Shown here in pieces: positions 41,660 to 49,150 of a stretch of DNA of 64,000 bases (positions are counted from its first letter, which is position 1; each line of letters begins with the position of its first letter). A model generated the notes under the pieces. That model saw nothing but the letters and a program-made list of their open reading frames with translations, ran no database searches and was not told the origin of the DNA. Made by a program: the position numbers and the translations under genes. This stretch comes from Changpingibacter yushuensis (GTDB lineage Bacteria > Actinomycetota > Actinomycetes > Actinomycetales > Actinomycetaceae): contig NZ_CP059492.1 in the NCBI RefSeq assembly GCF_014041995.1, positions 1,550,001 through 1,614,000 on the forward strand, written 5' to 3'.

Positions 41660-41805
41660 GTGGTCTCCTCATATGTTGGGCGCGTACATACGGCGGCACG
41701 CGCTTGACAGAAGTGAGCACATACGCAGGTGCACACCCCGTCTATGATACTCGACTTAGTTGGGTGTGCTGTTCAGAGGCGTGAGGGCCCTAGAGCCGAT
41801 AAGAG

Positions 41806-41877
41806 TGGGCGATACTGGGATCGAACCAGTGACCTCTTCCGTGTCAGGGAAGCGCGCTCCCGCTGCGCCAATCGCCC
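41806..41877 (-). tRNA. tRNA-Val (anticodon GAC), copy 1
   Basis: Acceptor arms GGGCGAT and ATCGCCC, a D-arm, anticodon loop CTGACAC and T-arm GGTTCGATCC fold as a 72-nt tRNA without encoded CCA. It is identical to the copy at 42054-42125. Confidence 0.95.
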
Positions 41878-41888
41878 ATACATGAAGA

Positions 41889-41904
41889 ACCGGCTTGCGC
41901 CGGT
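41889..41904. other. Small hairpin between tRNA genes
   Basis: ACCGGC-TTGC-GCCGGT is a perfect six-base-pair stem between the Gly and Val genes. It is likely a processing element or weak terminator. Confidence 0.3.
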
Positions 41905-41913
41905 CCGATTTTG

Positions 41914-41986
41914 AGCGGATGACGGGACTCGAACCCGCGACCCTCACCTTGGCAAGGTGATGCTCTACCAACTGAGCCACATCCGC
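41914..41986 (-). tRNA. tRNA-Gly (anticodon GCC), copy 1
   Basis: Acceptor GCGGATG with CATCCGC, T-arm GGTTCGAACC and anticodon loop TTGCCAA define a 73-nt tRNA-Gly. It is identical to the copy at 42232-42304. Confidence 0.95.
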
Positions 41987-42019
41987 AATATGTGCCGTTT
42001 TCACGACTTTTCAATGTTC

Positions 42020-42045
42020 GAGGCTCTGAATTCCTTCAGAGCCTC
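42020..42045. terminator. Hairpin after tRNA-Val copy 2
   Basis: GAGGCTCTGA-(6)-TCAGAGCCTC is a perfect ten-base-pair stem just downstream of tRNA-Val copy 2 on the minus strand. No T-tract follows, so it may be a processing signal or a partial terminator. Confidence 0.45.
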
Positions 42046-42053
42046 TTCCATAG

Positions 42054-42125
42054 TGGGCGATACTGGGATCGAACCAGTGACCTCTTCCGTGTCAGGGAAG
42101 CGCGCTCCCGCTGCGCCAATCGCCC
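42054..42125 (-). tRNA. tRNA-Val (anticodon GAC), copy 2
   Basis: Identical in all 72 bases to copy 1; loop CTGACAC, no encoded CCA. Confidence 0.95.
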
Positions 42126-42130
42126 AAGCG

Positions 42131-42201
42131 AGGTGGGTACGGGATTCGAACCCGTGTGCACGGCTTTGCAGGCCGTTGCCTCGCCTCTCGGCCAACCCAC
42201 C
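42131..42201 (-). tRNA. tRNA-Cys (anticodon GCA)
   Basis: A 71-nt tRNA with acceptor GGTGGGT/ACCCACC, anticodon loop CTGCAAA and T-arm GGTTCGAATC. It sits between the Gly and Val genes in the same minus-strand transcript. Confidence 0.94.
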
Positions 42202-42231
42202 GTGCGGTGATGGTGAACCATCGTTCCACCG

Positions 42232-42304
42232 AGCGGATGACGGGACTCGAACCCGCGACCCTCACCTTGGCAAGGTGATGCTCTACCAACTGAGCCACAT
42301 CCGC
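42232..42304 (-). tRNA. tRNA-Gly (anticodon GCC), copy 2
   Basis: Identical to copy 1. It is the first gene of the minus-strand tRNA transcript, about 40 bases from a good promoter candidate. Confidence 0.95.
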
Positions 42305-42345
42305 AGCAGATCCGCGGGAAGACTAGCTCCCGGCGGCGCTCCATA

Positions 42346-42375
42346 ACTATAGGCAATCTTCGCGCGCCATGTCCA
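42346..42375 (-). promoter_or_regulatory. Promoter of the minus-strand tRNA cluster
   Basis: TGGACA (-35, 42370-42375), 18 bases, then TATAGT (-10, 42346-42351) precede tRNA-Gly copy 2 by about 40 bases. It is a good sigma-70-like match. Confidence 0.6.
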
Positions 42376-42411
42376 ACCGAGCCGATGAGGCGCACGCCAC
42401 GCCCGCATGCT

Positions 42412-42441
42412 TTGCGAAAGCGACTCCGTTCGGGCTATTCT
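42412..42441 (+). promoter_or_regulatory. Promoter of tRNA-Val(CAC)
   Basis: TTGCGA (-35, 42412-42417), 18 bases, then TATTCT (-10, 42436-42441), 18 bases before the tRNA. The spacing is right and the match moderate. Confidence 0.45.
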
Positions 42442-42459
42442 CATCAGGCACGCCAATAC

Positions 42460-42531
42460 GGGCGATTAGCTCAGTGGTAGAGCGCTTCGTTCACACCGAA
42501 GAGGTCACTGGTTCGAACCCAGTATCGCCCA
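42460..42531 (+). tRNA. tRNA-Val (anticodon CAC)
   Basis: A 72-nt tRNA with GGGCGAT/ATCGCCC acceptor, anticodon loop TTCACAC and T-arm GGTTCGAACC. It reads GTG codons, which are frequent in such genomes. It is alone on the plus strand and ends in an intrinsic terminator. Confidence 0.95.
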
Positions 42532-42535
42532 CCGC

Positions 42536-42566
42536 AAGGTCCCTTGAATTCTCAAGGGACCTTTTC
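42536..42566 (+). terminator. Intrinsic terminator of tRNA-Val(CAC)
   Basis: AAGGTCCCTTGA-ATTC-TCAAGGGACCTT is a perfect 12-bp stem followed by TTTTC. The T-tract is the target of the IS insertion next to it, and the duplication leaves it intact. Confidence 0.85.
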
Positions 42567-42569
42567 GTA
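42562..42569. repeat. Target-site duplication of IS1249-like element 1, left copy
   Basis: TTTTCGTA abuts the left terminal repeat. The same eight bases occur at 45387-45394, directly after the right terminus. IS256-type elements make 8-9 bp duplications. Confidence 0.9.
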
Positions 42570-42612
42570 GGGTTAAAGGACAAAACGTGGGTTTTATGGC
42601 GGCGTGTCGGGG

Positions 42613-43788
42613 TTAGTTTCGGATCCATCCTGTGCGGATTGTGAGGCCGTCTTCCCAGGGTGCGCTCGTGTTGATGGTGGTGTCGATTTCGGCTGGGCCT
42701 GGGCGAGTGTTGTTGGCGTGTAGTGGTGTGGGTTGTTCGATGTTTGTTGCGAAGTCGGTGATGGGCTGGGTGTTCAGGGACCGGGAGTACAGGTAGTAGT
42801 CCATCGCTCTCAACATGTGGTGTTCGGTCAGGCCGCGGTGGGCGTGGAGATAGGCCTTCAAGGGGGCGTTGATGCCGCCTTCGAGGGGGTTTGTGGTCGA
42901 TCGGAGCTTGTTGGTGGTTTCCAGGTTGGGGTCGAGATAGGTGAATAAGACGCCGTCTTTGACGTGTGTGTCCAGGGATCTGACGATGCTTCTGGTGTTG
43001 TGGTGGGTGTACCACCAGGCTTTGTTCCGTTTCGCGAATGCCGGGACCACGCCGGGTGGGGTGTCGGCTTTGAAGGTGCGTTCAGCGAGCCAGGGGTCGT
43101 AGAGGTTATGAAAGGCGGCGAGTTTCTTTTGCCACGCGATGGCTTGCTCGCTGGTGGTGATGCGTGTCAGGTCCAGTCCAAGACGGTAGAGGGCTTTGTG
43201 TTGAACGATTTTTGGTCGACTGGTGGTGACCCTGCGGATGTTGCGTTGGATGTGGACCTGGCAGCGTTGCAGACGGCTGGTGGGCCATTCCTTCCTGATC
43301 GCTGCCAGGGCTCCTTGCGCTCCGTCAGTGACGACCACCAGGGGTGCTGGGATGCGTGCGAGGAGAGCTTGGTAGGAGGCTTTCGATTCACGATCGCATA
43401 GCTGGTAGTCGATGATTCCCTGGGTGGTAGCGGCTGTGAGCACGCACCAGCCGTGGGCGATATAGGTGCCGTCGATGAAGATCTGGTCATGGATTTCACC
43501 GGTTGGTTGCCAGATCGGTTTGGTTGTCCAGCACCAGGCGTGGTCGCGGTCCCAGGTCCGGATGGATGTGGTGAGGTGGCGGCGGGGGCGGGTGTCGGTG
43601 ACGTAGTCGATGAACTCGCGGAACTGTGCCAGGCGTTGCTGGTCTGCGCGTGGTGCGGTGAAGGAGTAACGGCATTCGGTGCAGTACCAGCGTTGTGTGC
43701 CTGCTCGTGTGGTGCCTTTCTTTCGACACGGGCGGTGGCAGATCGGGCAGGTACGGGCACGCGGGCTGAGTTTCTTCACCCCATGCAC
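42613..43788 (-). CDS. Transposase, IS1249-like (IS256 group)
   Basis: This 391-residue protein has an N-terminal zinc ribbon (CPICHRPC and CTEC, residues about 15-38). The DDE core has IFIDGTYIAHGW (Asp), VVTDGAQGAL (Asp) and NPLEGGIN (Glu). The gene looks intact. Expression could depend on its own promoter near the right end, which is now separated from the outer 13 bp by the IS3 element. Confidence 0.88.
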   Translation of the reverse strand: MHGVKKLSPRARTCPICHRPCRKKGTTRAGTQRWYCTECRYSFTAPRADQQRLAQFREFIDYVTDTRPRRHLTTSIRTWDRDHAWCWTTKPIWQPTGEIHDQIFIDGTYIAHGWCVLTAATTQGIIDYQLCDRESKASYQALLARIPAPLVVVTDGAQGALAAIRKEWPTSRLQRCQVHIQRNIRRVTTSRPKIVQHKALYRLGLDLTRITTSEQAIAWQKKLAAFHNLYDPWLAERTFKADTPPGVVPAFAKRNKAWWYTHHNTRSIVRSLDTHVKDGVLFTYLDPNLETTNKLRSTTNPLEGGINAPLKAYLHAHRGLTEHHMLRAMDYYLYSRSLNTQPITDFATNIEQPTPLHANNTRPGPAEIDTTINTSAPWEDGLTIRTGWIRN

Positions 43789-43896
43789 ATAACTGTTGCC
43801 AGTTCAAGGAAGCAATCGTATTAAGGCCCGCCACCCTAAAGACAGCGACTTTCCACGATCACAGCAACGAAAAACCCGATCTTAAGACCCACCTTT

Positions 43897-45370
43897 GGGG
43901 GTCAGGACTGTTTTCTGGATGGTTCTGGTTTCTCCATTTTGTCACGGTTTTCTTGGATGGTGCCTCCAAGGGATGTTTTCAAGCGCTCTGTGTTATAGAA
44001 GATAAGGTAATCATTGATTGCCGTCTCGAGCTGTGCGGCACTGGTCCAGGTGTGACCGTAGAACATTTCCGTTTTCATACGTCCGAAGAATCCTTCACAG
44101 GCCGCGTTATCGGGACTACATCCCTTCTTTCCCATCGAGCGGGTGATCCCAGCAGCCTTCGTGGTCTCGATCCATTCAGCGCTCCGGTAATGTCCACCAC
44201 GATCGCTATGAATAATCAGTGGGATAGCTTCCTTATCATCACGTAAAGCGTCGTGGCGCTCGGTAGGCAAACTCGCGATCGCAGCTTCCAGCATCGACTG
44301 CGTCATCACCTTGTCCGGTCGTCGACTCGTCTGCCACGCCACCACTTTCCCATCACAGCAATCAATCATCGGGCTGAGATAGACCTTGGCGTCCGAAGCA
44401 GCAAACTCACTGACATCAGTGAGCCATAGTCTGTCAGGCTCATCAGCATGAAAATTCCTCTTGACGTGATCATCTGGGGCCGGGCTTGTCTCTCCCTCAT
44501 AACTGGAATAGCGACGCTTGCGGTGAGCGTAATAAACCGGGATCTGATGTTCTTTCATCAAACGACGAACAACCTTCTCAGAAACAGTCACCCCAAGACG
44601 CTTGAGTTTGAGCCAGACCCGTGCAGAACCATACGTAAAGCCCGAATCGCCAGCAATCTTCTCAATCCTGCCAGCGAGCTCGCCATACTTGTCGGGACGT
44701 TCAAGCACACCCCGACAATAGTGGTAGCTACTGGCCGAGATCGCGCACGCCTCCAGCAGCATCACGAAAGGAAGACGAGCACGCAACCGGTCAATGATGC
44801 GTGTCTTGTTCAGGTTCGACAGTTGTCCCGGGATGACGCCCCCGTCTTTTTTTACCAGATCAAGCTCGTGTTCCAACACATGCTTTTCCACTAGAAGCCT
44901 GGCCGCCAAACGACGCAACTCGTCAGGATCATCCGGCAATGACTTCTCTAGTTGAGCTCGAGTGGCTAACCCATCAGCCTCGCGTTTCTCACGTCTAGTC
45001 ATCAGGGCCCGCTCACCTTCTTGGTTCCATAGCCGCATCCACTTATACAACAGCATATGGTTAACAATGCCGAGATCCCCAGCAATGTCTTTAACTGATT
45101 GGCCAGCATTCATCCGCTCCACGGCGCTCAACTTAACAGTCCATGGATAGTGGCGGGCAGGCTGCCTCTTCACGACCGGTTTGCGACCTCGACGAGACTG
45201 ATGCACCCAATCATGGAGCACATGCCGAGACGGATACCCCAACTTCCGGATCGTCTTGACATACGAACCCAACCTACGGAACGTCGCCACAGCCACACGC
45301 TTCTGCTCAGCTGAATACACAACCCTCATACAAGCCTCCCGAAAAGATACGGAAAACTGTCCAGACCCCC
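43897..45370 (-). mobile_element. IS3-family insertion sequence nested in the IS1249-like element
   Basis: Terminal inverted repeats lie at 43897-43915 (GGGGGTCAGGACTGTTTTC) and 45352-45370, matching in 17 of 19 bases. TTT flanks both ends (43894-43896 and 45371-45373), a likely 3-bp target duplication. Joining the flanks restores the host element's right inverted repeat, which proves the order of insertion. Length 1474 bp. Confidence 0.88.
43902..45329 (-). CDS. Transposase, IS3 family, single uninterrupted ORF
   Basis: This 475-residue protein has N-terminal helix-turn-helix repeats (about 1-120, YSAEQKRVAVATFRRLG and VKDIAGDLGI), a leucine-rich linker and an rve-type DDE integrase core: LTDVSEF (Asp), IIHSDRGGHYRS (Asp) and NAACEGFFGRMKTE (Glu). 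Many IS3 members need a frameshift between orfA and orfB; here both are fused in one frame. I chose the ATG at 45329, preceded by GGGAGG. A start at 45410 would lie outside the element. Confidence 0.9.
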   Translation of the reverse strand: MRVVYSAEQKRVAVATFRRLGSYVKTIRKLGYPSRHVLHDWVHQSRRGRKPVVKRQPARHYPWTVKLSAVERMNAGQSVKDIAGDLGIVNHMLLYKWMRLWNQEGERALMTRREKREADGLATRAQLEKSLPDDPDELRRLAARLLVEKHVLEHELDLVKKDGGVIPGQLSNLNKTRIIDRLRARLPFVMLLEACAISASSYHYCRGVLERPDKYGELAGRIEKIAGDSGFTYGSARVWLKLKRLGVTVSEKVVRRLMKEHQIPVYYAHRKRRYSSYEGETSPAPDDHVKRNFHADEPDRLWLTDVSEFAASDAKVYLSPMIDCCDGKVVAWQTSRRPDKVMTQSMLEAAIASLPTERHDALRDDKEAIPLIIHSDRGGHYRSAEWIETTKAAGITRSMGKKGCSPDNAACEGFFGRMKTEMFYGHTWTSAAQLETAINDYLIFYNTERLKTSLGGTIQENRDKMEKPEPSRKQS

Positions 45371-45386
45371 TTTTGTCTCTTAACCC

Positions 45387-45394
45387 TTTTCGTA
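45387..45394. repeat. Target-site duplication of IS1249-like element 1, right copy
   Basis: TTTTCGTA directly follows the terminal CCC at 45386; it is the partner of 42562-42569. Confidence 0.9.
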
Positions 45395-45418
45395 TGGCCC
45401 CACCGCTCATCCTGATGC

Positions 45419-46818
45419 GGGTTAAAGGCCAAAAGTGGTGTTTTTATTTTGGTGGGTGTGTTGCGGTTTAGTGTGATCGTCCTGCCCAGCCTTTTCGGGG
45501 CCAGAGGCCTTCTTCTTTGGTGAGTGCGGTGTCGTAGTGGACGGGCATGTCCCCGACGGTGGGTTTGAGTTTGGCTTTGGTCTTTCTCTTTGGGATTGTG
45601 CGGCGTTGTGGCCTGCCAGCTGTGTTCCATTCTCGGAGTATGTGGCTGGCTGATTGAGGGTTTTCGGTTGTGGAATGCAGGTACCAGTTGATCATTGCTT
45701 GCATGTGTGTTTCCGTCATTCCCCGATGTGCGTAGGTGAGTGCGCGGATGCGTGAGTTGATTGATTCGACAGGGTTCGTGGTGCGTTCCTGTGGCGGGTC
45801 GAAGTCGAGGAAGGCGAAGAGGCTTCCCTCTTGTTGGAGGCGTGCCAGGCGGTGGTAGACACGCCTGTCACGTTCATGGGTGTACCACCATGTTCGCCCT
45901 TCCCGACGCTGGGAGGCCGGGACATCACGGGCCCAGGTTCGTTCCGTGAAATAGGCCTGGTACTGGGTGTGGAGCTGGACAAGCAGACCAGACCAAGCCG
46001 CTGCTTCCTGCCGGGTTTTGACTTTCAAGAGTCGGATGGATAAGCCATAAAGAGCTTTCCCTGCAGGGGTGGCAGGACGGTGGGTCAGATCGCGTAGGTT
46101 GTTGCGGTGAACATGGACCAGGCAGCGTTGAACAGGAGTATCAGGCCACAGGTCATGGAGGGCTTTCAGGGCTCCACCGGCCCCGTCGGTGGTGACAAGA
46201 CAGGGAGGAGCGATCTGGTCCAGTAACGCCATGTAGGCGGCTTTCGTTTCGCGTGTCGTCCACTGCCAGGTAACAACATGACTCTGGCTACGAGCGATCA
46301 GCAGGCACCAGCCGTAGGGAAGGTAGATGCCGTCAATGAAGACTTGGGAGTAGACCTCGCCTGTTGGTTCTACCTGCGGAGTAGGAATGCTCCAGCACCA
46401 TTGCCAGTCACGGCGCTGAGTTCTCAGGCTGGTGCCAGTCATGTGTGCCTGTGTGCTGGTGCCCGTCACATATTCAAGGAATCGGGTCAGAACAGCTGTG
46501 TCGGTAATATCTGGCCGTCCAGCACTGAGGCGGTGTGGATCTTGGCCGCAGGTCGCGCACCGGTATCGGATTCTTCCGTTGCGGTACCCATTCTTCAGGA
46601 CTGGGCCACACGCGCAGATGGAGCAGGGTCGTGTTGATCGTTGTCTTCCCACACACCCATATGCAGGCATTCCAAGGCGCTACCACATAACCAGAGGAAA
46701 GTGGGAGAAGCAGACACAATCACGCCTCATCTTGCCTCACAAGCAAGACGATCCCGACCTTTCCCCACCATCACACCGAAAACCCAGACATAAAAACACC
46801 AATCCTGGCCTTTAACCC
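45419..46818 (-). mobile_element. IS1249-like insertion sequence 2 (IS256 group)
   Basis: Arms 45419-45447 and 46790-46818 match in 26 of 29 bases and begin GGGTTAAAGGCC, the same core as element 1. Length 1400 bp with one transposase. No clean 8-bp duplication adjoins the ends; GCTCATC occurs at 45405-45411 and 46825-46831, seven and six bases outside. The element lies only 32 bp from element 1. Confidence 0.85.
45468..46670 (-). CDS. Transposase, IS1249-like (IS256 group), divergent from the first
   Basis: This 400-residue protein has a zinc ribbon near the N-terminus and DDE residues in VFIDGIYLPYGW, LVTTDGAGGAL and NPVESINSRI. It is clearly related to, but not a copy of, the first transposase: motifs are shared but most residues differ. 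It appears intact. Its gene points away from glgX. Confidence 0.87.
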   Translation of the reverse strand: MPAYGCVGRQRSTRPCSICACGPVLKNGYRNGRIRYRCATCGQDPHRLSAGRPDITDTAVLTRFLEYVTGTSTQAHMTGTSLRTQRRDWQWCWSIPTPQVEPTGEVYSQVFIDGIYLPYGWCLLIARSQSHVVTWQWTTRETKAAYMALLDQIAPPCLVTTDGAGGALKALHDLWPDTPVQRCLVHVHRNNLRDLTHRPATPAGKALYGLSIRLLKVKTRQEAAAWSGLLVQLHTQYQAYFTERTWARDVPASQRREGRTWWYTHERDRRVYHRLARLQQEGSLFAFLDFDPPQERTTNPVESINSRIRALTYAHRGMTETHMQAMINWYLHSTTENPQSASHILREWNTAGRPQRRTIPKRKTKAKLKPTVGDMPVHYDTALTKEEGLWPRKGWAGRSH

Positions 46819-46942
46819 GCCAATGCTCATCGGCGTTTCCTCGGCCGAAATCAGCAGCGTTTGGGCCGTCATTTCCTTGCAGGTTTCGCGAAAGCCTGCG
46901 TGAACCTCCCACAGATGGGCAATTACGTGAGATTCTTGTGCC

Positions 46943-49150
46943 ATGCAGATTTGGCCAGGAAACGCGTACCCCCTCGGGGCAACTTTTGACGGAACAGGCA
47001 CCAACTTCTCAATCTACTCGTCGGTAGCCGAGAGCATTGAGCTGTGCTTGTTGGATGAAGATGACAATGAGACCGCGGTTGAACTGCGCGAAGTGGACGG
47101 CTCAGTGTGGCACTGCTATATCCCGGCAGTTCGTCCGGGCCAACGCTACGGGTACCGGGTATATGGCCCATACGATCCAAGCAGCGGGCTGAGGTGTGAC
47201 CCTTCGAAGCTACTTCTGGATCCCTACGCGAAAGCAATAGACGGCCAGATACACAACCATCAAGCGCTGTTCTCCTATGACTTCGCAGATCCGTCACAGC
47301 GCAAGGAACTGGATTCGCTTGGCCACACGATGGTTTCAGTGGTGGTGAACCCGTACTTTGACTGGGGCCGGGACCGCCCACCGGGCCACGACTACTCAAA
47401 CTCGATCATCTACGAGGCTCACGTCAAGGGTATGACAATGCGTCACCCTGACATTCCCGAGGAATACCGTGGCACCTATCTAGGTATGTGCCATCCGGTG
47501 ATCGTCGACTACTTGTCAAAGCTGGGAGTGACGGCAATCGAGCTCATGCCCTGCCACCAGTTCGTCAATGACACCTCTCTGCAGGAAAAGGGCCTATCCA
47601 ATTACTGGGGTTACAACACAATCGGCTTCTTTGCGCCGCACAACGGATACACCAGTGCCAGCAATGACACCGGGCAGGTCCACGAGTTCAAAGAGATGGT
47701 GAAGACCTTCCACGAGGCTGACATCGAAGTGATCATGGATGTGGTCTACAACCACACCGCCGAGGGCAACCATATGGGCCCAACCCTCTCTTTCAAGGGA
47801 ATAGACAACCCTTCGTACTACCGCCTAGTGGAGGAAAGCCCGGAGCACTACTTCGACACCACCGGGACCGGCAACTCACTGAACATGCGTAGTCCCCACA
47901 CTCTTCAGCTCATCATGGATTCGTTGCGCTACTGGGTCACAGACATGCATGTGGATGGTTTCCGTTTCGATCTGGCTTCCACCCTCGCTCGTGAGCTCCA
48001 CGCCGTAGATAAGCTTTCATCGTTCTTTGACATCATCCAACAGGATCCAATCATCTCCCAAGTCAAGCTCATCGCAGAGCCGTGGGACGTTGGTGAGGGC
48101 GGATATAACGTGGGCGAATTCCCACAACTGTGGTCAGAATGGAACGGCAAGTACCGCGATACTGTGCGCGACTTCTGGCGGGGTGAACCTGCAGTGCTTT
48201 CCGAACTGGCGTATCGGCTCACAGGTTCGTCTGACCTGTACGAGTCATCGGGCAGGCGCCCGATGGCCTCCATCAACTTTGTGACCGCTCACGATGGCTT
48301 CACGCTGCGCGACCTTGTCTCTTTCAATGACAAGCACAACGATGCCAACCGCGAAGGCAACAATGACGGAGAGACAAACAACCGCTCGTGGAACTGCGGA
48401 GTTGAGGGAGAGACAGACGATCCTGATGTCGTTCATCTTCGCGACCGCCAAGTTCGCAACTTCCTGACCACCTTGTTGCTCTCTCAAGGTGTCCCGATGA
48501 TCGCGCATGGTGATGAGATCGGACGAACTCAGGAAGGCAACAACAACACATACTGTCAGGACAATGAGATCGCGTGGGTGGACTGGGAGCTAACCAAGGC
48601 AGATCTGGCACTCCTCACGTTCACCAGCAACCTCATTGCGTTCAGGAAAGAGCACCCCGTGCTTCGCAGGCGGCGTTTCCTCTCTGGCGAGTCCACCCGC
48701 GGAGGGCGCACATCTATTGGTGAGGTGGAGTGGTTCCGGCCTGATGCCACACTCATGCAGGATGAAGATTGGTCCACAGGATTTGCCCGTTCACTCATGG
48801 TGTTCTTGAATGGTTCAGAGATTCGTGAACCAGACGCGCGCGGCAACCGCATTGAGGATGATGACATCCTTATTACGTTCAATGCCAGCGATGAACCTGT
48901 CACTTTTGTGATTCCGGATGCGGCATACGGAGATACCTGGCGCATTGTCCTAGACACGGGTTCCCACGGGGACCCTGACGCCGAACAACACCCAGGAGAT
49001 TCATTCGAGATCGCACCCCGCGCAATATGCGTGCTTCTCCACGAACTTTGGGATCCAAACGCCTTCCATCTCGAGGATGAGGAGGTCGACGACGTCGCAG
49101 ATACCTCGCCTGGTTTTGTGCCACCTCGCCGGAAGGCAAGCGATTCCTGA
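46943..49150 (+). CDS. glgX: Glycogen debranching enzyme GlgX/TreX
   Basis: This 735-residue GH13 enzyme removes alpha-1,6 branches. An N-terminal CBM48 domain (about 1-130) precedes the barrel, with VVYNHTAEGNH, FRFDLAST (nucleophile Asp), LIAEPWDVG (Glu acid) and FVTAHDGFTLRD (Asp). In the trehalose pathway it supplies linear maltodextrin to TreY. No Shine-Dalgarno is evident. The terminus of IS element 2 is 124 bp upstream, so its promoter may be affected; the gap shows no gene. Confidence 0.95.
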   Translation: MQIWPGNAYPLGATFDGTGTNFSIYSSVAESIELCLLDEDDNETAVELREVDGSVWHCYIPAVRPGQRYGYRVYGPYDPSSGLRCDPSKLLLDPYAKAIDGQIHNHQALFSYDFADPSQRKELDSLGHTMVSVVVNPYFDWGRDRPPGHDYSNSIIYEAHVKGMTMRHPDIPEEYRGTYLGMCHPVIVDYLSKLGVTAIELMPCHQFVNDTSLQEKGLSNYWGYNTIGFFAPHNGYTSASNDTGQVHEFKEMVKTFHEADIEVIMDVVYNHTAEGNHMGPTLSFKGIDNPSYYRLVEESPEHYFDTTGTGNSLNMRSPHTLQLIMDSLRYWVTDMHVDGFRFDLASTLARELHAVDKLSSFFDIIQQDPIISQVKLIAEPWDVGEGGYNVGEFPQLWSEWNGKYRDTVRDFWRGEPAVLSELAYRLTGSSDLYESSGRRPMASINFVTAHDGFTLRDLVSFNDKHNDANREGNNDGETNNRSWNCGVEGETDDPDVVHLRDRQVRNFLTTLLLSQGVPMIAHGDEIGRTQEGNNNTYCQDNEIAWVDWELTKADLALLTFTSNLIAFRKEHPVLRRRRFLSGESTRGGRTSIGEVEWFRPDATLMQDEDWSTGFARSLMVFLNGSEIREPDARGNRIEDDDILITFNASDEPVTFVIPDAAYGDTWRIVLDTGSHGDPDAEQHPGDSFEIAPRAICVLLHELWDPNAFHLEDEEVDDVADTSPGFVPPRRKASDS

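Follow-up and report, generated by a model that had tools for sequence, protein, structure and literature searches.

An IS3-family insertion sequence nested in the end of an IS1249-family element of Changpingibacter yushuensis, and its recurrence at IS1249-type ends

The nested elements and their boundaries

The window analyzed here, a stretch of 64,000 nucleotides from Changpingibacter yushuensis (contig NZ_CP059492.1, positions 1,550,001 to 1,614,000), contains an insertion sequence (IS) of the IS3 family that is nested in the right terminal repeat of an element of the IS1249 family (Table 1). Assignment of the outer element to the IS1249 family is based on the score of its transposase against the NCBIfam model NF033544 (390 bits, cut-off 300), on its terminal inverted repeats and on its 8-bp target duplication, a length known for the IS256-like group. 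The inner element belongs to the IS3 family according to its NF033516 score (322 bits, cut-off 160), its Pfam matches PF00665, PF13276 and PF01527, which represent rve and HTH domains, and its short target duplication, which in this family measures 3-5 bp. Our reading of the ends showed that the uninterrupted left end of the outer element, from position 42570, is GGGTTAAAGGACAAAACGTGGGTTTTA, and that removal of the IS3 and of one TTT copy rebuilds a right end, GGGTTAAGAGACAAAAGGTGGGTCTTA, that matches the left one in 23 of 27 bases. The outer duplication, TTTTCGTA, is identical in both copies (chance about 1.5e-5 for one pair of 8-mers), and the IS3, with the ends GGGGGTCAGGACTGTTTTC and GGGGGTCTGGACAGTTTTC, has inserted 13 bp from the right terminus of its host.

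The nested pair, the two families, the boundaries, the rebuilt repeat and the perfect outer duplication had all been proposed in the initial annotation of this stretch and were borne out by the profile scores and by direct reading of the ends. Likewise, the proposed order of events, with the IS1249-family element arriving before the IS3, is supported, and both duplications hold. A loss of mobility of the outer element, which had also been suggested, is plausible because the IS3 interrupts the right repeat after 16 bp, although the frame of the outer transposase has remained intact. What the initial annotation did not contain is a second IS1249-family element directly downstream and the finding that such nesting recurs at other places in the genome.

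Table 1. Positions of the nested elements and of adjoining features in the window.
Feature	Position	Strand	Basis or remark
tRNA-Val (anticodon cac), upstream of outer element	42460..42533	+	ARAGORN
Terminator-like hairpin	42536..42563	+	perfect 12-bp stem, then TTTTCG; unlisted by consensus scan
Outer 8-bp target duplication TTTTCGTA, left copy	42562..42569	+	direct reading
Outer IS1249-family element, nested IS3 included	42570..45386	-	ends, duplication, NF033544
Left terminal repeat of outer element, uninterrupted	42570..42596	+	direct reading
Outer transposase, IS1249 family	42613..43788	-	391 aa, open frame; NF033544, PF00872
Interrupted right repeat of outer element, inner part	43883..43893	-	direct reading
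IS3 3-bp target duplication TTT, left copy	43894..43896	+	direct reading
Inner IS3-family element	43897..45370	-	1474 bp; DNA search, boundaries
Inner transposase, one continuous frame	43902..45329	-	475 aa from ATG at 45329; NF033516, rve, HTH
Right-repeat tip of outer element, outer 16 bp	45371..45386	-	GGGTTAAGAGACAAAA read inward; positions 14-16 are the IS3 target
IS3 3-bp target duplication TTT, right copy	45371..45373	+	direct reading
Outer 8-bp target duplication TTTTCGTA, right copy	45387..45394	+	direct reading
Second IS1249-family element	45419-46818	-	transposase 45468-46670, 400 aa; NF033544

IS3 copies at IS1249-type tips

A DNA search of the C. yushuensis genome (G000; 2.66 Mb, one contig) with window positions 42400-47100 returned eight full-length copies of the IS3, six of which, including the copy in the window, are at least 99.7% identical, while one is 98.4% and one 85.4% identical. 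All eight adjoin the 16-bp IS1249-type tip GGGTTAAAGGCCAAAA or a variant of it, so that the point of insertion, which the initial annotation had regarded as incidental, is not so. The tip consists of GGGTTAAAGGCCA followed by AAA, and the IS3, found in either orientation, has this tip on its left (L004, L005, L006), on its right (L001, L002, L003) or on both sides (L009, L010). Except at the right tip of L010, which is degenerate and 15 bp long, the IS3 joins at tip base 16. The six one-sided copies all show an exact AAA/TTT duplication that corresponds to tip positions 14-16. The hosts of these copies are five distinct IS1249-family elements, each with its transposase gene, or what remains of it, adjoining the IS3; one of these hosts (135.4-136.6 kb; transposase 135389-136573) carries an IS3 in each of its tips. 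L009 and L010, the remaining two of the eight, have the arrangement tip-IS3-tip with unequal triplets beside the IS3. In the whole genome the tip motif was found at 17 places with at most one mismatch (13 exact), seven of which abut an IS3, and the reversed pattern used as a control was found at 3 places. The same DNA search revealed no second copy of the nested pair, and what comes nearest to the outer element in this genome is a relative with 71% identity. The count of eight does not include a 183-bp IS3 fragment (L014), which has lost the last bases of its IS3 end and has no adjoining tip, nor an IS3 end fragment at 2343440, which does adjoin a tip. Beside one IS3 copy, at G000:C1:138090-138123 (L130, L131), two IS1249-type tips are arranged in tandem, 18 bp apart.

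Relatives of this IS3 were found in seven of 213 genomes of the same family, the C. yushuensis genome included, when a sample covering 36 genera was searched at the protein level (E 1e-60, at most seven matches scored per genome). The relative in G059, a genome of another genus, has about 50% amino acid identity to the IS3 of the window, and its DNA count amounts to 14 copies, 12 full-length and two cut, without a fifteenth match of 86 bp (76%). Seven of these 14 copies are located in tips, namely five of the 12 full-length copies (L104, L105, L106, L108, L113) and both cut ones (L114, L115), with only the inner side of the tip visible in L115 and with the insertion in L104 displaced by one base within a run of A. 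All seven off-tip copies have exact 3-bp duplications. L108 has a non-autonomous host of about 350 bp that is bounded by two tips and flanked by the 8-bp duplication AATCGGTG. No transposase match was found in this host, and therefore the tip, not the transposase gene, is the target. With eight of eight copies in C. yushuensis and seven of 14 in G059, the element falls into the functional class of ISs that target the ends of other transposons, and tip targeting is common, not universal, in this IS3 group.

Moreover, a search of the 213 genomes for the junction pattern of a tip followed by an IS3 end, with up to three mismatches, yielded 24 sites in 10 genomes and none with the reversed control. 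Sites were credited in C. yushuensis (10), in G059 (6) and in G129, G150, G191 and, more weakly, G058, and the retained matches with three mismatches (G191, G058, one in C. yushuensis and two in G059) are each followed by an IS3 end. With these sites, tip cases extend to three additional genera of the family, two of which are represented by IS3 remnants; G150 and G191 contain IS3 remnants only, as judged from the longest frames listed. The copy on contig 54 of G058 lies beside an IS1249-family transposase gene that is 62% identical to that of the window. Three-mismatch matches in G004, G034, G208 and G211 were not credited, and that in G004 reads as an uninterrupted tip. Outside the family, Leucobacter coleopterorum (NZ_CP049933.1) has a tip-IS3-tip arrangement with 16 bp on each side. 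A copy in an Actinomyces metagenome-assembled genome (MAG; G188) was not counted, as it ends at a contig end, with a tip-like right flank. At E 1e-90 the protein search found the IS3 in the C. yushuensis genome only among 396 genomes of the order and 394 of the class, and viral contigs gave no match in one search and a single pattern match, which encodes no relative.

Among plasmids, 2180 records contain IS3 relatives with identities below 60%, and in the 40 matches listed Corynebacterium stationis ranks first with 47.8%, followed by 42.0%; insertion flanks were inspected for C. stationis alone. Two quick, unrooted FastTree runs, with the whole protein and with its later part, placed the IS3 of C. 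yushuensis in one group with those of the Actinomyces MAG (G188), Leucobacter, G059 and G058, G129 and C. stationis. This group is split from IS3 elements of Enterococcus, Burkholderia, Catenisphaera, an Oscillospiraceae MAG, G003 and G077 with a support of 0.988 and 0.983, respectively, where G003 and G077 are members of the same family that fall on the other side of the split. When we refer to a clade below, a root among the other IS3 elements is assumed.

In six cases the IS3 lies between two outward-facing tips and the body of the host is missing. These tip-IS3-tip units comprise L009 and the degenerate L010 in C. yushuensis, two units in G059 (at 986 kb and 1528 kb) and the units in L. 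coleopterorum and G129. An outer 8-bp duplication is visible in two of the six, L009 (CCCCGTGT) and the G059 unit at 1528 kb (CGCGGCGC), and both G059 units share the unequal triplets of L009 and L010. Such triplets are expected if two insertions, one in each tip of a single host, recombined or if one IS3 end attacked a second tip. The doubly hit host in C. yushuensis is still intact, but its two IS3 copies are in opposite orientation.

Probable sequence recognition of the tip and alternative explanations

A position matrix trained on nine tips of the C. yushuensis genome was applied to the seven off-tip insertions in G059, allowing two orientations and with the background taken from flanking positions. 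With tip columns 4-13, five of the seven sites obtained p values between 0.0035 and 0.013 and the other two 0.38 and 0.55 (Fisher 1.7e-6), and cores such as TATCGGACA, TAGAAGACA and TGAGGACA were found directly 5' of the duplication. Because these columns had been picked after the sites were inspected, the test was rerun with five column choices in 25 registers, and the true register was the best of the 25 for all five choices (Fisher 1.7e-6 to 2.8e-3), the best shifted register reaching 3.4e-3 to 5.6e-2 across the column choices. Because five of the seven off-tip sites resemble the tip core, target choice by the IS3 transposase probably depends on DNA sequence, and the IS1249 tip would be the preferred site.

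Taken together, we consider it very likely that the nesting in the window results from the preference of an IS3 clade, encountered here in Actinomycetota, for the tips of IS1249-family elements, and the nested pair looks like targeted parasitism between jumping genes, not an accident. According to this explanation, the IS3 transposase would prefer the tips of IS1249-family elements and also of a small non-autonomous element that shares these ends, would join the IS3 13 bp from the end of the tip and duplicate positions 14-16, usually AAA, and would do so in either orientation and at either host end. It would recognize the tip core (approximately TTAWAGGMCA, positions 4-13), and tethering by the IS1249 transposase appears less likely. 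In the window, an IS1249-family element would first have inserted behind the tRNA-Val terminator, with an 8-bp duplication. The IS3 would afterwards have inserted into the right tip of this element, which cut the repeat after 16 bp and probably kept the element from transposing. Where both tips were hit, recombination between the two IS3 copies, or attack of one end on the second tip, may have left the tip-IS3-tip units as remnants.

Several observations weigh against this explanation. The evidence consists of genome sequences, in which no transposition event was observed. Targeting is not absolute, given that seven of the 12 full-length copies in G059 are outside tips, and the C. stationis plasmid relative, which belongs to the same tree group, is not in a tip either. 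L104 has one tip only, with unrelated sequence on its other side, and none of the G059 tip copies has an IS1249 transposase match within 1.5 kb, so that hosts are sometimes incomplete. The group also looks rare, as the junction pattern with up to two mismatches was absent from the other 393 genomes sampled from the class. Of the eight copies in C. yushuensis, six are nearly identical and might stem from one recent burst, yet they occupy different host sites. With all 16 columns of the matrix the likeness to the tip was weaker, three of the seven off-tip sites remaining below 0.05 (Fisher 2.8e-3), and one shifted register reached 9.3e-3. A resemblance of the tips to the terminal sequences of the IS3 itself, considered as a possible cause of targeting, is weak (single-end p values of 0.01 to 0.13 across 16 bp).

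The simplest alternative, that the IS3 inserts anywhere and that copies inside mobile elements survive as harmless, could draw on the fact that IS elements are generally neutral landing places and on the off-tip majority of full-length copies in G059. However, survival would permit any spot in IS1249 elements of about 1.4 kb, or in spacers, and yet eight of eight copies are at one position, and the G059 off-tip sites match the tip core in the right register; chance nesting is accordingly rated as highly improbable. An IS1249 transposase bound to its own repeat might instead guide the IS3 transposase or circle to the tip, and the point of insertion does lie within the region that this transposase presumably binds, as is the case for terminal repeats generally. 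Such tethering is nevertheless unlikely, as the off-tip sites in G059 resemble the tip core where there is no tip, and one G059 host of about 350 bp has no transposase match, although a transposase could still act in trans.

Another view is that the tip-IS3-tip units are themselves mobile, with the IS1249 transposase acting on the 16-bp tips at both sides and moving the IS3 as cargo, so that part of what look like IS3 insertions would be movements of a whole unit. The number of units and the outer 8-bp duplications of two of them (L009 and G059 1528 kb) would fit this view, but insertion into both tips and later loss of the host body would also keep the 8-bp duplication and would in addition explain the unequal triplets. 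Furthermore, the tip pairs differ between the two units in C. yushuensis and between the two in G059, and thus no unit was found at two places. We regard mobilization of the units by the IS1249 transposase as unsupported and improbable. In its furthest extension, tip preference would make the IS3 clade a specialized parasite of IS1249 that recognizes the tips, immobilizes the host and, through hits at both ends, replaces its body, with the IS1249 transposase perhaps carrying the resulting units, including to sites behind terminators; this extended scenario seems unlikely.

Known systems and surrounding features

Insertion into transposon ends was reportedly described for IS4321/IS5075, which target Tn21-type terminal repeats, by Partridge and Hall in 2003, and it is also known for IS231A, an IS4-family element of Bacillus that enters the ends of Tn4430. 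As described in passages of two reports, IS4321 and IS5075 belong to the IS1111 family and transpose into the terminal inverted repeats of Tn21-type transposons (PMC8269217, PMC11187229), and one of them mentions an off-target insertion of IS5075 at the 3' end of ureC, where the chromosome resembles a Tn21-type repeat (PMC8269217). The IS3 studied here is similar in that it enters the terminal repeats of another transposon family, and its relative in G059 is found off target at resembling sites. In contrast, it uses an IS3-family transposase (rve), generates a 3-bp duplication and has an IS1249-family host, so that the likeness is functional only and does not extend to membership in the IS1111/IS4321 family, which is characterized by a DEDD transposase with guide RNA. 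A strong sequence preference has precedents within the IS3 family itself, since IS1397, ISKpn1 and ISPsy8 are stated to target repetitive extragenic palindromes (REP), a preference for which, in the case of IS1397 and ISKpn1, the same passages report the transposase to be responsible (PMC1525189). Unlike the ends of mobile elements, however, the targets of these three ISs are a chromosomal palindrome family. Both IS1249-family elements of the window resemble IS1249 of Corynebacterium and other NF033544 elements in exceeding the model's cut-off, and a protein search identified their relatives in the C. yushuensis genome.

Searches of an open-access library, with subscription journals and ISfinder outside their scope, listed no paper that describes targeted insertion of an IS3 into the ends of IS1249 elements. 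Hence transposon-end targeting and sequence specificity of IS3 elements are known, and what looks new is an IS3 aimed at IS1249 ends. If this is true, an unrelated transposase family joins the short list of ISs that aim at transposon ends, with a link to a host family that is familiar from resistance elements of Corynebacterium, in which erm(X) is carried on Tn5432 flanked by IS1249. It would also provide a natural case of mobile-element parasitism in which eight of eight copies are on target in one genome and the mixed sites of another point to the recognition motif, while the tip-IS3-tip remnants may record double hits. For annotation, IS1249-type ends beside such an IS3 should serve as a warning that the arrangement is not chance nesting.

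The site of the outer insertion is the T-rich tail of the hairpin behind tRNA-Val. All three other members of the genus (G001, G002, G003) have a matching tRNA-Val, and no IS1249 tip with up to two mismatches was found in these loci (about 3 kb each). The G001 locus shows the tRNA-Val, a hairpin and a T-run, and those of G002 and G003, inspected by eye, have no such hairpin; the flanks are too diverged to reveal an empty site with a single TTTTCGTA. Four IS1249-type ends, at the window site, L009, L010 and L091 (G059), lie directly behind terminator-like hairpins with stems of 12-15 bp. Perfect stems of at least 12 bp occurred in four of 24 outer flanks scored, a non-random sample, and stems of at least 10 bp in 0.6% of 3000 random 60-mers, which were drawn from the fetched loci and not from the whole genome. 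A general aim of IS1249-type elements at terminators was not adopted as an explanation, since the stems in the flank scored measure only 6 bp for the copy at 340 kb and 4 bp for that at 2.03 Mb; the data hint that some of these elements settle, or are tolerated, behind terminators.

The tRNA-Val is the last of six tRNA genes at 41805-42533 (Val, Gly, Val, Cys and Gly on the minus strand, Val on the plus strand; ARAGORN), an array in which Val(gac) and Gly(gcc) occur repeatedly and which is bordered by the IS cluster and, at its other end, by a gene that resembles threonyl-tRNA synthetase (named by eye). The second IS1249-family element starts 32 bp beyond the end of the first, and its transposase scores 339 bits against the NF033544 cut-off of 300. 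The search table shows 100% identity between this element and two copies elsewhere in the genome, at 340 kb and 2.03 Mb. Its flanks, CCTGATGC and GCCAATGC, form no 8-bp duplication, which suggests recombination between copies or decay. Such duplications do accompany the two copies just named and a copy at 1.05 Mb, and at 1.43 Mb seven of the eight bases match.

The open frame of the inner transposase continues beyond its assigned start and past the end of the IS3, up to an ATG at 45410. In the IS3 family orfA and orfB are usually, not universally, joined by frameshifting. The inner element has an A7G tract (44847-44853, minus strand) at the place where the two frames normally join, and across it the orfA and orfB parts are in a single frame, as they are in the relatives of G059, G129 and C. 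stationis, and the Leucobacter relative has A6 in place of A7 and an early stop after the tract. Slippage at A7G would give a short OrfA, not a fusion, which would reverse the usual arrangement.

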